A stretch of 64,000 nucleotides of DNA from Arthrobacter sp. SO3 (GTDB lineage: Bacteria; Actinomycetota; Actinomycetes; Actinomycetales; Micrococcaceae): contig NZ_MQTS01000015.1 in the NCBI RefSeq assembly GCF_020532825.1, positions 1-64,000 on the forward strand. The letters are read 5' to 3'. Below are positions 8,436 to 21,408 of this stretch, one piece after another. Positions within the stretch are counted from its first letter, which is position 1. Each line of letters opens with the position of its first letter. The notes beneath the pieces are model-generated. The model had not been told where the DNA came from. It saw only the letters and a list, made by a program, of their open reading frames with translations, and did no database searches. Both the position numbers and the translations under genes were made by a program.

Positions 8436-8489
8436 AGTCCTCAGACCCTACGCCGATCCGGCGACGGGAACCAGCGGTATCCTGCCCGG

Positions 8490-8615
8490 TTCCTGGTTCC
8501 TGGTTCCTGCTTCCTGCTTCCTGGTTCCTGCTTCCTGCTTCCTGGTTCCTGGTTCCTGGTTCCTGGTTACTGGTTCCTGGTTCCTGGTTACTGGTTCCTG
8601 GTTCCTGGTTCCTGC
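8490..8615. repeat. Heptanucleotide tandem repeat, 18 units of TTCCTGG type
   Basis: Eighteen uninterrupted 7-bp units run from 8490 to 8615. Most are TTCCTGG; units 3, 4, 6, 7 and 18 are TTCCTGC, and units 12 and 15 are TTACTGG. A 21-bp higher order is visible: units 2-4 and 5-7 share the G-C-C pattern, and units 10-12 and 13-15 share the TTACTGG-ending pattern. This points to growth by duplication of three-unit blocks. The array sits in the divergent promoter region between the SOUL gene and the nuclease-helicase gene. The unit is not a multiple of three, yet every frame stays open through it, which creates meaningless long reading frames. Confidence 0.97.
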
Positions 8616-8726
8616 TTGATTGTCAGAGCGCTTTGATAGTTTGAAGAACAGAGGGTCAGGCTGCGCTGCCGGCAAGTCTTTGGCTGCAGGCCGATACATG
8701 CGCAGCGAATCGACATCGGGGGCACA

Positions 8727-11700
8727 GTGTTTTTTCTTGAACCGGAAGTAGCGGGGACAGCGCAGGACCTGGTGTTCTCCGCGAGCGACCTCGTCACGGC
8801 CGCGAGCTGCGAGTACCAACTGCTGCGCAAGCTCGACGAGAAGCTTGGCCGCTCGCCCAAGGCGTCCTTCGACGACGATGAGATGCTCAAGCATGCAGCC
8901 GTGCTGGGCGACCGCCACGAGCACAAGGTCCTCGACGGTTTCGTCGAGGAGTTCGGACACTGGGATCCGGCCTCCGGGCGCGGCGTGTACGACGTCGCGC
9001 CGGCACAAACCATGGACCGCGCCACCCTGCTGGCCAAGCACCGGGAATCCCTGGACGCCCTGCGCTCCGGCGCCGACGTTGTGTTCCAGGCCGCTTTCTT
9101 CGACGGCCAGTTCCACGGCCGCTCCGACTTCCTGGTCCGGCAGGCCGACGGCAGCTACGCGGTGTTCGACACCAAACTGGCCCGCCACGCGAAGGTCACC
9201 GCGCTGCTCCAGCTTGGCGCCTATGGCGATCAGCTGCTCAAGGCCGGGATAGCACCGGCCCCGGCGGTGACCCTGGTCCTCGGCGCCACCGTCCCGCTCC
9301 CGGGTGGGGGCTTCGACTACGTCCGCAGCCATCACAACCTTTCCGAGATCCTGCCGGTCTTCCGCGAGCGCCGGGACCGGTTCCTGGCCCTGATTTCCTC
9401 GCATCTGGCGCAGCCCGGCACCGTGCAGTGGGGTGCGCCGGGACTCAGCGCCTGCGGCCGCTGCGATTACTGCCAGGAGCAGGTGGTAGCCACCGACGAC
9501 CTGCTCCTGGTGGCGCGGATGAACTCGGCGCAGCGCAAGGCACTCCACGGACTGAACATCTTCACGGTCAAGGAGCTCGCGGAGGCCCCGCTCCCCGGGG
9601 CGAACGGCGCACTGCTGCGCCTGCAGGACCAGGCCAGGATGCAGAGCGGGGTCGGCGCTTCCGACGGCGGCGTCCGCTACCTCAAGGACGGAACGGAACA
9701 CAGCATCAGCTACCGGGTGATCCCGGAAAACACGCTGGCCGAACTGCCACCGCCCAGCCAAGGCGACATCTTCTTCGACTTCGAGGGCGATCCCCTGTGG
9801 CAGGAAAGCGCCACCGGAATCTGGGGTCTGGAATACCTGTTCGGCGTCATCGAAGCTCCGACGGGCCCCGGCGTGCCCGGAGTGTTCCGGCCGTTCTGGG
9901 CGCACAGCCGGGAAGCGGAGAAGCAGGCCTTCCTCGGTTTTCTCGACTACGTGCAGAAACGCCGGCAGGACTATCCGGACATGCACGTCTACCACTACGC
10001 GGCCTATGAGAAGACAGCGCTCCGGAAGCTCTCCGTGTTGCACGTGGCCGGCGAGGACGTCGTCGACGAGTGGCTGCGCGAGGGGCTCCTGGTGGATCTA
10101 TACCAGACGGTCCGCAACAGCATCCGGATCTCCGAGAATTCCTACAGCATCAAGAAACTTGAGCCGCTCTACATGGGGACGAATCTCCGCTCCGGGGATG
10201 TGAAAGACGCCGGCGCCTCGGTGGTGGCCTATGCCCACTACTGCGATGCGCGCGACGACGGCCGGGCTGAGGAAGCGGTCAGCATTCTCGCCGGGATCTC
10301 CGACTACAACGAATACGACTGCCTCTCCACGCTGGTGCTCCGGAACTGGCTCCTTGGGCTGGCGCGGGAGCGCGGGATCCAGCCGGCCGGGGATGGCGTC
10401 GGGTCCACGGTCCCATCCGGCGTCGCGTCCACCGTCCCGTCCATGGCCGGCGGCGGGCGCGCGGGCACCGCGCTGGATGCCGGGCCGGGTGCCGCTGATT
10501 TGGACCCGCTGGAAGTGGCGCTGGCCGGGCTGGCGGATGCCGCCGTCGGGCTGTCCGAGGACGACCGGAAGGCGGTTTCCATGCTGGCGGCGGCGGTCAG
10601 CTATCACCGCCGGGAGCGCAAGGCGTTCTGGTGGGCGCACTTCGACCGGTGCGAAGCCGGTCCTGACACGCATCACCAGCAGGACCGCAACGTTTTCCTC
10701 GTCGAGGACGCGGAGGTGCTCGAGGACTGGTGGAAGGACGGGGCAAAACTTCCGGAGCGGAAGGTGAAGCTGATCGGCACCGTCAGCCCGGGCTCCGATC
10801 TCCGCGAGGGCAGCACCTGGTTCCGCATGTATGAGCCGCCGCTTCCGGCCGGGCTGGAGGGCACGGGTATCAACGGGACCGGACGCAACGGCTGGTTCGG
10901 GACCGAGGTTCTGGAGCTGGGCCACGAGGACGGCAAGGACACCGTCATCATCCGGGACAAGCTCCGCAAGACTATCGAACCCTACAGCCAGGTCCCCGTC
11001 GCCCTGACCGAAGACCAACCCATCCAGACCAAAAGCCTTGAGGACGCGCTGGCGGCCCTGGCGTCCGACGTCGCCGCGGCATTGCGGTCCGGACCGGCGG
11101 CCTTCCCGCGCCATCCGGCCCTGGATCTTGTCCGCCGTGTTCCGCCGCGGCTGAGCTCCGGGGCGGAACTGCCTGCGCCCGGGGAGGGCCCGGACCGGTT
11201 CATTGACGCGATCACGGAGGCCGTCGCAACCCTGGACCGCTCCTACGTGGCAGTCCAGGGGCCGCCCGGGACCGGCAAGACCCATGTGGGATCCCATGTC
11301 ATCGCCCGGCTGGTGGCCCGGGGCTGGAAGGTCGGCGTCGTCGGCCAGTCCCATGCGGTGGTGGAGAACCTGCTGAAGACGGCCGTGACCAAAGCCGGGG
11401 TCGATCCGGCTCTTGTCGCCAAGGACGTGAAACATGCGGAGCCCCTCCCCTGGGAGCAGCGCTCGGCGAAGGATGTGGCGCGCCTGCTCAGTTCGCCCGG
11501 CGGGGCGCTGATCGGCGGGACGGCGTGGACCATGACGGGTGCCAACGTCCCGGCCGGATCGCTGGACCTGCTGGTGATCGACGAGGCCGGCCAGTTCTCC
11601 CTGGCCAACACCCTCGCCGTGGCGCAGGCCAGCAGCCGGTTGCTGCTGCTCGGCGATCCCCAGCAGCTGCCGCAGGTCAGCCAGGGCTCGCACCCCGAAC

Positions 11701-12383
11701 CCGTGGATGAGTCAGCCCTGGGCTGGGTTTCCGCCGGTCATGCCACCCTTCCGCCGGAACTCGGCTATTTCCTGGCCGACTCGTGGCGGATGACCTCGGA
11801 GCTGTGCCGGGCCGTCTCGGACCTCTCCTACGAGGGCAAACTGCGCTCAGCGCCCGCCGCGGACCTGCGGCGGCTCGAGGGAGTTCCGGCCGGGATCGAG
11901 ACCGTCATGGTGGAGCACAGCGGCAACATCACGTCGTCGGCCGAAGAAGCCGCCGAGGTCGTCCGCCAGGTGCGGCGCCACCTGGGCCTGAGCTGGCACT
12001 CGGAGCAGGGCACCCGGCCGCTCGACGCCGCCGACATCCTGGTGGTCGCGGCCTACAACGCCCAGGTCAACGTCATCCGCGACGCGTTGGATGGCGCTTC
12101 CCTGGCTGGCGTCCGGGTGGGAACCGTGGACAAGTTCCAGGGGCAGGAAGCCGCCGTGGTGATCGTGTCCATGGCCTGTTCAGCGGTGGCCGAGGCGCCG
12201 CGCGGCATGGACTTCCTGCTCTCCCGCAACCGGATCAACGTGGCGGTATCCCGCGGTCAGTGGCGCGCCGTCGTGGTCCGGGCACCCGAGCTGACCAACT
12301 TCCTCCCCACCCATCCCGAGGGCCTGGAACAGCTGGGCGGATTCATCGGACTGTGCCAGCGCTCTGTGGCTGCCGGCCGGTAA
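8727..12383 (+). CDS. TM0106-type RecB-like nuclease fused to RNase H fold and DNA2/Upf1-like helicase
   Basis: A 1218-residue multidomain protein likely to act on DNA ends or R-loops. Residues about 1-250 form a RecB-type PD-(D/E)xK nuclease, with Asp in GRSDFLV (about 131) and DTK (about 148). Cys27 and the CGRCDYC cluster (about 241-247) match the four-cysteine iron-sulfur arrangement of Cas4, AddB and DNA2 nucleases. An RNase H-like domain follows (DIFFDFEGDP, about 350). The C-terminal half is a superfamily-1 helicase with Walker A GPPGTGKT (about 845), Walker B VIDEAGQ (about 950), LLLGDPQQLPQ, and the terminal DKFQGQE and NVAVSRG motifs. Starts at GTG 8727. It stands alone and is convergent with the following operon across a repeat element. 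The cellular role is not established. Confidence 0.9.
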   Translation: MFFLEPEVAGTAQDLVFSASDLVTAASCEYQLLRKLDEKLGRSPKASFDDDEMLKHAAVLGDRHEHKVLDGFVEEFGHWDPASGRGVYDVAPAQTMDRATLLAKHRESLDALRSGADVVFQAAFFDGQFHGRSDFLVRQADGSYAVFDTKLARHAKVTALLQLGAYGDQLLKAGIAPAPAVTLVLGATVPLPGGGFDYVRSHHNLSEILPVFRERRDRFLALISSHLAQPGTVQWGAPGLSACGRCDYCQEQVVATDDLLLVARMNSAQRKALHGLNIFTVKELAEAPLPGANGALLRLQDQARMQSGVGASDGGVRYLKDGTEHSISYRVIPENTLAELPPPSQGDIFFDFEGDPLWQESATGIWGLEYLFGVIEAPTGPGVPGVFRPFWAHSREAEKQAFLGFLDYVQKRRQDYPDMHVYHYAAYEKTALRKLSVLHVAGEDVVDEWLREGLLVDLYQTVRNSIRISENSYSIKKLEPLYMGTNLRSGDVKDAGASVVAYAHYCDARDDGRAEEAVSILAGISDYNEYDCLSTLVLRNWLLGLARERGIQPAGDGVGSTVPSGVASTVPSMAGGGRAGTALDAGPGAADLDPLEVALAGLADAAVGLSEDDRKAVSMLAAAVSYHRRERKAFWWAHFDRCEAGPDTHHQQDRNVFLVEDAEVLEDWWKDGAKLPERKVKLIGTVSPGSDLREGSTWFRMYEPPLPAGLEGTGINGTGRNGWFGTEVLELGHEDGKDTVIIRDKLRKTIEPYSQVPVALTEDQPIQTKSLEDALAALASDVAAALRSGPAAFPRHPALDLVRRVPPRLSSGAELPAPGEGPDRFIDAITEAVATLDRSYVAVQGPPGTGKTHVGSHVIARLVARGWKVGVVGQSHAVVENLLKTAVTKAGVDPALVAKDVKHAEPLPWEQRSAKDVARLLSSPGGALIGGTAWTMTGANVPAGSLDLLVIDEAGQFSLANTLAVAQASSRLLLLGDPQQLPQVSQGSHPEPVDESALGWVSAGHATLPPELGYFLADSWRMTSELCRAVSDLSYEGKLRSAPAADLRRLEGVPAGIETVMVEHSGNITSSAEEAAEVVRQVRRHLGLSWHSEQGTRPLDAADILVVAAYNAQVNVIRDALDGASLAGVRVGTVDKFQGQEAAVVIVSMACSAVAEAPRGMDFLLSRNRINVAVSRGQWRAVVVRAPELTNFLPTHPEGLEQLGGFIGLCQRSVAAGR

Positions 12384-12558
12384 GACATGCCCAGTCGTTG
12401 CCCCCGCACCGACGGGACATGCCCATTCTTGGAGCGCACCAGCCAGGGACATGCCCATTCTTGGACGCGGAGAGTGGACATAATGGCATTGTGTCCACTG
12501 GTGGCCGCCGCGACGGGGCATGTCCCGCGGTGACGGTCCGTGCAGCGGGGCATGTCCA
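12382..12558. repeat. Mirror-symmetric 32-nt phased repeat element, copy A
   Basis: Three direct units start at 12382 (AAGACATGCCCA, degenerate), 12414 and 12446 (both GGGACATGCCCATTCTTGG). A central dyad spans 12473-12499 with arms AGTGGACA and TGTCCACT around an AATGGCA core. Two inverted units follow (GGGGCATGTCC), with mirror anchors at 12526 and 12558. Measured from the dyad centre (12486), the anchors lie at 40, 72 and 104 nt to the left and at 40 and 72 nt to the right, an exact 32-nt period. The element fills the gap between two convergent genes and overlaps the TAA of the upstream gene. A second copy with the same spacing lies at 21232-21408. Confidence 0.93.
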
Positions 12559-12583: not shown

Positions 12584-13465
12584 CTAGTTGCGGCGGGCGG
12601 CGCTGGCGGGAGCCGACCCTGCCGCGACTGCCACGGGAATGTCCACCCCGGGGATAGCCGTCCCGGCGCTGTCCGCCCCGGCGATGTCCCCGGCCAGCAG
12701 GAGTGCTTCATCCAGGACGGCCCCGAAGTTCGCCGGGTTGTGGGCGAAGCGGCCCAGGAAGAGGCCGGAGACGCCGTCGAGCGTGGGCAGAAGTCCAGGC
12801 TTGGCCGAGCCGCCGTAGATGACGGGCAGGTCCCCCAGCCCGGAGGCGGCGAACTGTCCCCGGAGCTGCCGGACGGCGTCGGACACCAATCCGGCGTCGG
12901 CAGGCTCCGCGGCACCGATGGCCCAGACCGGTTCGTACGCGATGACGAGCCGCGCGGCGAGGTCCCAGTCGCCGTCGACGGCCGAGCGGATCTGGCCGTA
13001 CACAAATGCAGCGGCGGCAGCGGGCCCGCCGCGGTCGGACTCTCCGACGCACAGCAGCGGGGTGAGCCCGGCGTCGGCCGCCGCCCTGACTTTGCGCGCG
13101 ATCATGGCATCGTCTTCGCCGAAGTGGCGCCGGCGTTCGGCGTGGCCGATTTCCACGAGCCGGACCCCAAGCTCCGCGAGCATGGACGGAGCCACCTCCC
13201 CGGTCCACGGACCGTCGGCCCAGCCGCAGTTCTGGGCGCCGAGCAACAGCGGCGAACCGGCGAGCAGCCCGGCGGCGGCGGGCAGGACGGGAAACGACGG
13301 AATGACAAACGGGACAACCCGCCCGGCCTCGAGGGCCGGGCGGGTGTCCACTTCCTGGCGCAGCCGCTCCAGCCAGTCCAGGCTGTCCTGGTAGCCCAGG
13401 TACATCTTGGTGCTGACCCCGACGAGGATGCTGCCGGTGGGGGTCGGGCTGGGGTGCTGCTGCAT
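12584..13465 (-). CDS. Triose-phosphate isomerase family protein, probable L-erythrulose-1-phosphate isomerase
   Basis: A 293-residue TIM-family isomerase. The catalytic residues are present: Lys20 in GVSTKM, His108 in EIGHAERR and Glu178 in AYEPVWAIG, with the phosphate-binding GGSAKP loop near the end. Divergence from housekeeping TIM (GVSTKM instead of GNWKM) and its place in a sugar operon argue against a glycolytic role. TIM-like enzymes of this kind (LerI) convert L-erythrulose 1-phosphate to D-erythrulose 4-phosphate in the tetritol pathways of Mycobacterium smegmatis. The operon also encodes a DAK-type kinase and an RpiB-like isomerase, the other two enzymes of that route. It is the last gene of the operon and ends against repeat copy A. 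A Pro-containing N-terminal extension and an Ala-rich C-terminal tail add length. Confidence 0.72.
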   Translation of the reverse strand: MQQHPSPTPTGSILVGVSTKMYLGYQDSLDWLERLRQEVDTRPALEAGRVVPFVIPSFPVLPAAAGLLAGSPLLLGAQNCGWADGPWTGEVAPSMLAELGVRLVEIGHAERRRHFGEDDAMIARKVRAAADAGLTPLLCVGESDRGGPAAAAAFVYGQIRSAVDGDWDLAARLVIAYEPVWAIGAAEPADAGLVSDAVRQLRGQFAASGLGDLPVIYGGSAKPGLLPTLDGVSGLFLGRFAHNPANFGAVLDEALLLAGDIAGADSAGTAIPGVDIPVAVAAGSAPASAARRN

Positions 13466-21231: not shown

Positions 21232-21408
21232 GCGACCTGCTCATCCCTGCCGCCCCCACCCGCGGGACATGCTCATTCCTGGCTCACCCGCCCGGGGGAC
21301 ATGCTCATTCCTGGCTCACATACCCGCGGGACATGCTCATTGTTAAAAGCGAACAGTGGACAGAATGGCAATCTGTCCACTGTTCGCGCCCGCAGGGGGA
21401 CATGTCCA
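21232..21408. repeat. Mirror-symmetric 32-nt phased repeat element, copy B
   Basis: Four direct units start at 21232 (GCGACCTGCTCATCCCTG, degenerate), 21264 and 21296 (both GGGACATGCTCATTCCTGG) and 21328 (GGGACATGCTCATTG). The 27-nt dyad at 21355-21381 has the same arms AGTGGACA/TGTCCACT and AATGGCA core as copy A. Here the inverted repeat extends outward to GCGAAC and GTTCGC, giving 15-16 bp arms (21349-21387). One inverted unit follows, with its anchor at 21408. From the centre (21368) the anchors are at 40, 72, 104 and 136 nt on the left and 40 nt on the right, the same as in copy A. The region 21181-21485 holds no gene; this element and the GntR operator fill most of it. Confidence 0.93.

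Follow-up and report, generated by a model that had tools for sequence, protein, structure and literature searches.

A mirror-symmetric, helically phased element family at gene 3' ends in Arthrobacter

The 64,000-nt stretch of DNA analysed here (the window; contig NZ_MQTS01000015.1 of the soil bacterium Arthrobacter sp. SO3) carries two copies, A and B, of a mirror-symmetric element that belongs to a dispersed family found in some Arthrobacter species. Nearly all copies in a genome obey a geometric code, in which each flanking unit lies 28 nt from its half-dyad and the two half-dyads are separated by a central spacer of 7 bp or, in one lineage, 6 bp. We give about even credence to the explanation that the element is a duplex-DNA platform for a clade-specific multimeric DNA-binding protein, which would set a boundary at 3' gene ends. 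Somewhat more tentatively, we propose a previously undescribed Arthrobacter system, a clade-specific DNA-binding machine that, at 3' gene ends, would assemble a mirror-symmetric lattice in helical phase and whose geometric code almost every copy in a genome would follow together. Such a lattice may serve as a boundary for transcription or topology, or as an att-like recombination platform. Bacterial intergenic repeats are usually explained by hairpins or transposon debris; here, ~40 sites per genome bear the signature of a protein lattice on duplex DNA, namely fixed distances, helical phase and a one-base change of spacing in almost every copy of one species.

Layout of the two copies in the window

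Copy A spans 12382-12558. Direct reading confirmed the anchors that the sequence-only reading had placed there: GGGACATG/AAGACATG at 12446, 12414 and 12382, which is 40, 72 and 104 nt to the left of the centre at 12486, and mirrored anchors that finish at 12526 and 12558, 40 and 72 nt to its right. The dyad itself, TGGACATAATGGCATTGTGTCCA, is 23 nt long. Copy B spans 21265-21407, with units that start at -39, -71 and -103 of the centre at 21368 and one more at +30 to +39. The features are as follows.

8727 to 12383, plus strand: gene upstream of copy A for a protein with RNase H-like and AAA helicase parts; it converges on the following gene
12383 to 12392, plus strand: copy A third left unit AGACATGCCC, 64 nt out, sharing the final base of the stop codon of the helicase gene
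12415 to 12424, plus strand: copy A second left unit, 32 nt outward of the inner left unit
12447 to 12456, plus strand: copy A inner left unit GGACATGCCC, offset -39 to -30
12447 to 12525, no strand: copy A core module (unit, 18 nt, dyad, 18 nt, unit), 79 nt
12475 to 12497, no strand: copy A central dyad TGGACATA-ATGGCAT-TGTGTCCA, centre 12486; the family consensus was taken over 145 non-redundant copies
12516 to 12525, minus strand: copy A inner right unit GGGCATGTCC, reverse complement of GGACATGCCC, offset +30 to +39
12548 to 12557, minus strand: copy A second right unit, 32 nt outward of the inner right unit
12584 to 13465, minus strand: gene downstream of copy A, triosephosphate isomerase family, convergent
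21265 to 21338, plus strand: three left units of copy B, 32 nt apart, with starts at 21265, 21297 and 21329
21357 to 21379, no strand: copy B dyad with extended hairpin arms GCGAACAG/CTGTTCGC, centre 21368
21398 to 21407, minus strand: copy B right unit GGACATGTCC

The two inner left units of copy A are identical over 20 nt, so its left 32-nt step is partly a local tandem duplication. The neighbours of copy B are a gene of the GntR family and one for an FMN oxidoreductase, both on one strand, and copies A and B enclose ~9 kb, from tpi to the GntR gene. In five other genomes (G068, G065, G031, G017 and G023; loci L130, L131, L132, L135 and L138) the helicase gene is followed by a single element and then by the FMN oxidoreductase gene that here lies to the right of copy B. 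As read from gene order, this short arrangement would reflect a deletion or an insertion with the element at the junction; the short helicase-FMN oxidoreductase order is also present in G070 and G005, which have no element there. At the other end of the helicase gene, beside its start, a tandem TRNQEP/TRKQEA peptide repeat closes the minus-strand ORF at 8448-10043, reflecting a short tandem DNA repeat (~8448-8720 of the window).

Copies and spacing in the source genome and its relatives

The source genome (G000, a 4.75-Mb assembly in 248 contigs) contains the dyad TGGRCATA-N7-TATGYCCA, with at most two mismatches, at 41 places, against none for the reversed-pattern control. Many copies lie within ~600 bases of contig ends (C51:34, C133:42, C159:120, C213:53 and C89:78; likewise C66:6863 of 6909, C177:13475 of 13526 and C224:66581 of 67134), and because arrays may break short-read assembly, 41 is possibly an undercount. 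The start of C133 (L046) is a perfect palindrome of more than 90 nt and may be a fold-back artefact.

Forty of the 41 dyads were read for units (C96:12233 was left out). GGACATGCCC-type units sat at exactly -39 to -30 and +30 to +39 in 39 of them, with 0-3 mismatches of 10 per unit, and a contig end cuts off one side of the fortieth. With unit position left free between 22 and 74 nt, the best match in the source genome fell at 39 in 31/35 left and 34/35 right arms, the remainder being better outer units; over 108 dyads scored with the same freedom, one left unit was best at 40 and none at 38. Loci found by the dyad alone had units at ±39 on both sides in 35/35 source-genome copies (at most 3 mismatches each), in 29/30 from G337 and in 34/43 from other genomes, a set that contains chance dyads of non-carriers. 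At the helicase junction, reached via the neighbouring protein, units lie 28 nt from both half-dyads in all 15 dyads of 11 genomes, including one in G017 with 3 mismatches and an N8 centre. Across 270 distinct elements, many of them from loci drawn by a pattern that forces one unit at -39, the unit stands at 39 in 236 left and 225 right arms, is shifted by 1 nt in 2 and 3, and is missing from 17 and 18. Regions of G010 and G012 were taken with a 91-position model, and most of those of G031 were chosen for its own subfamily. The ungapped source-genome alignment comprises 32 of 33 distinct copies (a perfect palindrome at a contig start, maybe an assembly fold-back, was left out), and the 18-nt spacers carry little information content.

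The rigid ±40 across copies bears out the claim, first made from copy A, that the sequence drifts while the spacing stays. Rather than being absent from relatives or stemming from one recent duplication, copies with the same 40-nt geometry occur in related genomes.

A one-base change of the central spacer in one species

Genome-wide, G023 has 33 N6 dyads vs 4 N7, as compared with 1 N6 vs 41 N7 in the source genome; N6 dyads number 0-2, with controls of 0-1, in all seven genomes other than G023 that were searched for them, the source genome included (G000, G017, G065, G010, G019, G030 and G005). A model search of G023 returned at least 74 places, both strands counted. In 20 regions around its N6 dyads, with unit position free, the unit again lies 28 nt from the half-dyad in 32/35 left and 31/33 right arms. 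The favoured dyad purine is G in 51/58 half-sites of G023 and A in 58/76 of the source genome. The G023 regions were chosen around N6 dyads and those of G000 around N7 dyads; the 29/29 (G023) and 38/38 (G000) follow from this choice, so only the whole-genome counts measure the shift. The G023 copy at the helicase junction is of the copy-B type and has kept N7.

Spacers at different loci are about equally dissimilar in G023 (identity 0.475) and G000 (0.459), which makes it unlikely that one recent master copy replaced all others; spacer identity reaches 0.618 in the G031 set. A shift to N6 with constant unit distances in heterogeneous copies would be expected if a trans-acting factor, presumably a protein, had changed. 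We infer, as the simplest reading, that in G023 the register of this protein changed and the sites then followed.

Outer steps and helical phase

The ±40 unit distance is invariant, and the 32-nt outer step is only the most frequent. The exact 32-nt period read from copy A stands as the commonest outer step, but it does not hold as a rule: in 113 first outer steps from 161 elements, 32 occurs exactly in 25, 33 in 10 and 29 in 7, with modes at 22-23, 32-33, 52 and 62. Among the other steps seen are 22-23, 29, 42-43, 51-55 and 61-64. We accordingly dropped the 32-nt rule for helical multiples on these 113 steps, whose best period is 10.1 (R 0.65); 32 nt is thus the commonest among several same-face steps.

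Distances between dyads inside clusters concentrate near 105, 115, 125, 134 and so on. When periods from 6 to 20 were scanned, a set of 47, from which likely homologous pairs had been taken out, fitted best at 10.45 bp (R 0.59). The 33 distances above 108 nt gave 10.5 (R 0.54, P 0.0005 for the 9.5-11.5 band vs uniform), and the 28 above 118 nt gave 10.55 (P 0.002). G337, searched afterwards, yielded 23 distances with a best period of 10.3 and R of 0.70 at 10.4 and 0.65 at 10.45, or 0.65 and 0.57 for its 15 distinct distance values. Outer steps and dyad-dyad distances track the DNA helical repeat of 10.1-10.5 bp, in spacings that are not fully independent, since tandem duplicates and orthologous arrays share descent. 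Collectively, the rigid ±40, the helical phasing, the N6 shift in one species and little left-right covariation favour a protein lattice over simple duplication, as was supposed from copy A. At L155 and L178, half-elements (an outer unit plus a half-dyad) stand in tandem beside full elements with a period of ~52-53 nt, about five helical turns.

Gene context and recurrence at orthologous junctions

In the fetched loci, by crude ORF calls, gene pairs with an element comprise 68 convergent, 68 tandem and 7 divergent, and pairs without one (gap of at least 100 nt) comprise 60, 183 and 80. Divergent pairs are avoided (Fisher, 6e-8) and convergent ones in excess (3e-10). The convergent location proposed from copy A is therefore enriched (68/143 with an element vs 60/323 without), but tandem pairs are equally many. 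In an earlier grouping, 23 of 177 element groups fell inside crude ORF calls, and the dyad centre lies a median of 100 nt from the stop codon (n=204). No consistent candidate for a binder gene autoregulated through divergent-promoter copies emerged when the flanks of eight groups that appeared divergent were inspected by eye.

Twenty-nine junctions are common to at least two loci. In their 123 pairs, units plus dyads are 0.89-0.92 identical and spacers 0.52-0.65, values that drop as the neighbouring proteins diverge, against 0.88 and 0.45 for unrelated pairs. Ascertainment explains part of the high unit identity, since the dyad served to find the elements and, for some loci, one unit did as well. 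The helicase junction bears an element in G000, G082, G067, G074, G068, G065, G031, G010, G017 (a relic), G071 and G023; no element was seen in the remaining 19 of the 30 loci.

In the explanation that we favour, a multimeric sequence-specific DNA-binding protein of the carrier clades would recognise GGACAT(A/G) half-sites. Two inward-pointing sites per arm, together with the 6-7 bp central spacer, would set the register of a symmetric nucleoprotein complex, which extra units and neighbouring elements could join on the same helix face. Its putative host function would be to delimit transcription units at their 3' ends, often between convergent genes, by acting as a roadblock to RNA polymerase or as a topological insulator. 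Blocking of RNA polymerase by proteins bound to DNA is, as a general idea, already published (PMC10310618, PMC4132739). The family gives a direct and testable way of asking what separates adjacent transcription units in high-GC actinobacteria.

Species range and history

A first search found the family in 10 of 59 genomes, all within the genus. Among 295 genomes of the taxonomic family, dyad counts of 14-57 occurred in 6 of 24 genus members and in 1 of 271 others, the remainder having 0-3 (controls 0-5); the one carrier outside the genus, G110, is identified by dyad count only, with 18 dyads in a genome that is 82% complete. Thirty chosen genomes comprised 18 with 12-50 dyads, G023 with 4, and 11 with 0-2. 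A phylum sample, under strict filters and with 10 candidates scored per genome, gave matches in 1 of 396 genomes, namely the source genome. Named carriers among the matches listed are Arthrobacter humicola, A. oryzae DSM 25586, A. bambusae, A. celericrescens, A. alkaliphilus and Pseudarthrobacter oxydans CC185; with 80 of 115 stretches named, the range is at least this. One further match lies on a contig labelled as a Ramlibacter MAG, perhaps mis-binned.

Carriers form clades. On a helicase tree of 30 genomes they need 4 changes (shuffled mean 9.1, with 0/500 shuffles as low), which argues for mainly vertical inheritance with gains or losses. The element is missing from many close relatives of carriers, among them G019, G080 and the clade of G062, G008, G033, G069 and G081, so that carriers vs close non-carriers, like N7 vs N6 species, provide a natural experiment for protein discovery. 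In open-licence PMC literature on Arthrobacter repeats, the unit, the dyad and helical phasing, the element was not described among the matches listed. Arthrobacter livingstonensis is a table row in RepRanger, with 5,512 REPs and 705 RITs, and that part of the paper gives no motif for them (PMC12306157).

Dispersal and the case for a mobile element

A ~95-nt module has recently dispersed in G031, where the 11 copies of a single subfamily, two of these being more diverged, share a block from ~-40 to +45 or +57. Their flanks are mostly unrelated (three copies share more), and the spacer identity is the 0.618 given above (12 copies, in a set of 14 loci of which 11 had been chosen for that subfamily). 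None of G000, G010, G012, G023 and G337 has recent dispersal of this level. The burst also fits a selfish element, and the family might be a non-autonomous mobile element made up of binding sites for a transposase or recombinase that acts in trans, with copies staying where insertion is tolerated near genes. Selection on insertions would be compatible with the avoidance of promoters. In its bold form, this alternative makes the element an attachment site for a tyrosine recombinase, with inverted core sites around a 6-7 bp overlap and arm-type direct repeats; the central 7-mers are variable, as overlap regions are expected to be. We regard the mobile-element account as unlikely, although it deserves weight. 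No autonomous copy was noticed among the 679 half-elements of the fetched loci, 153 of which lack a facing half-dyad. Viral contigs, searched with one exact pattern, and plasmids, searched by distant blastn at E 1e-5, gave no match, and a phage or plasmid origin was rejected on these searches. Target duplications were not seen by eye around the 11 G031 copies, and positions recur between species whose carriers form clades.

The Y1 transposase family PF01797 (RAYT-type) has 2 matches in G031 and 0 in the other 60 of 61 genus genomes; those without it include G000, G005, G010, G012, G018, G021, G023 and G030. REP/RAYT identity was rejected on this ground, no carrier searched save G031 having a Y1 protein. 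G031 is both the genome with the recent burst and the sole one of the 61 with Y1_Tnp (loci L122, at G031:C169:14061-14423, and L123). Five aligned orthologue pairs contain no clean empty site and differ by tandem duplication and drift. Copies arise through local tandem duplication and occasional dispersal of the ~95-nt module.

Like MITEs, the Arthrobacter elements are short, have inverted ends and show one recent burst; unlike MITEs, they recur at orthologous junctions, and neither an autonomous partner nor a target duplication was noticed in the loci read. Lambda-type attachment sites have inverted core-type sites, a 6-7 bp spacer and arm-type direct repeats on both sides. The Arthrobacter elements resemble them in sequence layout, with inverted core sites, a 6-7 bp spacer and flanking arm repeats, but they number ~40 per genome and no integrated element was noticed.

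Position on the chromosome

The elements could instead anchor a chromosome organiser in the manner of Noc, MatP or ParB sites, bridging or tethering the nucleoid, with siting at gene ends merely avoiding interference. Dispersed, phased, multi-site platforms, with 41 dyads in G000 and 57 in G337, are what such a role would lead one to expect. However, the ori/ter clustering that the sequence-only reading had suggested looking for did not appear in G337, the one genome examined, whose 21 clusters (built from 50 of 57 places) show no bias (KS p 0.29-0.64), and absence from many close relatives would be odd for a core organiser. We therefore hold this role to be improbable.

The matS, NBS and parS sites are dispersed and palindromic, each family serving one DNA-binding protein. 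The Arthrobacter sites are likewise dispersed and palindromic, with a putative binder, but differ in forming two-tier inverted arrays, in lacking ori/ter clustering in G337 and in occurring in only some species of the genus. The clc/TRS sites of Streptomyces TraB are chromosomal arrays of direct repeats of another sequence; the Arthrobacter elements are also actinobacterial chromosomal arrays of short sites, but mirror-symmetric and biased to gene ends.

Hairpin folding and terminator tests

A family of RNA or cruciform hairpins acting as bidirectional terminators (REP or terminator-like) is a very improbable account of the elements as a whole. Some copies do speak for it. Copies A and B fold strongly (z -5.1 for the RNA hairpin of copy A), as do two hairpin-like relics in G017, which has no canonical dyad, and the G017 hairpin at L064 ends in a T-run. 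Seventeen of 145 copies rank within the best 5% of their own arm-swapped chimeras, and exceptional folders include the C72 copy, its G017 counterpart with the T-run, as well as copies whose inner arms are of the copy-B type. Copies at the helicase junction, e.g. that of G023, have paired inner-arm changes by eye.

The family as a whole, however, has no excess of pairing: over all 45 mirrored columns, shuffled partners pair as well or better in 434 of 500 cases, and at one dyad position 10 of the 32 copies are unpaired. Among 145 non-redundant copies, covariation is seen at offsets 5 (z 5.8) and 12 (z 3.7) but not at most others. Native copies fold no more stably than their chimeras (-47.8 vs -46.4 kcal/mol, n=145, p=0.22), and the helical phasing between elements likewise speaks against hairpins. 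U-tract hairpins occur at 20/128 convergent gene ends with an element and 41/174 without, and at 13/61 and 48/239 co-directional ends, respectively; neither comparison shows an enrichment or a clear effect. An RNA or cruciform element was rejected as a general explanation on the shuffles, covariation and chimera folding, although copies A and B fold well; there is no general selection for hairpin pairing, with the 17 exceptions of 145, and a few copies look like plain hairpins. Rfam 15 has 0 matches above the gathering score within the window, and a known RNA family was rejected on this ground.

The REP/BIME sequences of Escherichia coli are dispersed, extragenic and palindromic, lie at 3' ends or between convergent genes, form tandem clusters and, as BIMEs, bind gyrase and IHF. 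The Arthrobacter elements share the dispersal, the palindromic form, the extragenic siting 3' of genes and between convergent ones, and the tandem clusters. They differ from REP/RAYT in that the carriers searched, except G031, have no Y1/RAYT transposase, and from REP/BIME in the lack of general hairpin selection, the near-invariant 40-nt unit distance and the helical phasing.

Chance, or trivial duplication of a single recent repeat, is hardly credible and was refuted: local tandem duplicates exist, but the control finds 0 places vs 41, the copies are heterogeneous (spacer identity 0.46) and many species carry them.

Other symmetric sequences

In G021, G012, G064, G066 and G075 (loci L143, L145, L141, L148 and L150), another long inverted repeat, CTGACTCGCA...TGCGAGTCAG, directly follows the helicase stop codon; it is perhaps a different, clade-specific bidirectional terminator. 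The genomes G161, G334, G253, G310, G363, G263, G302, G369, G292, G349 and G342 of genus g53 each have a dyad TGGGCAGAC-N5-GTCTGCCCA, which is likely to be the conserved operator site of a regulator with no relation to the Arthrobacter element.
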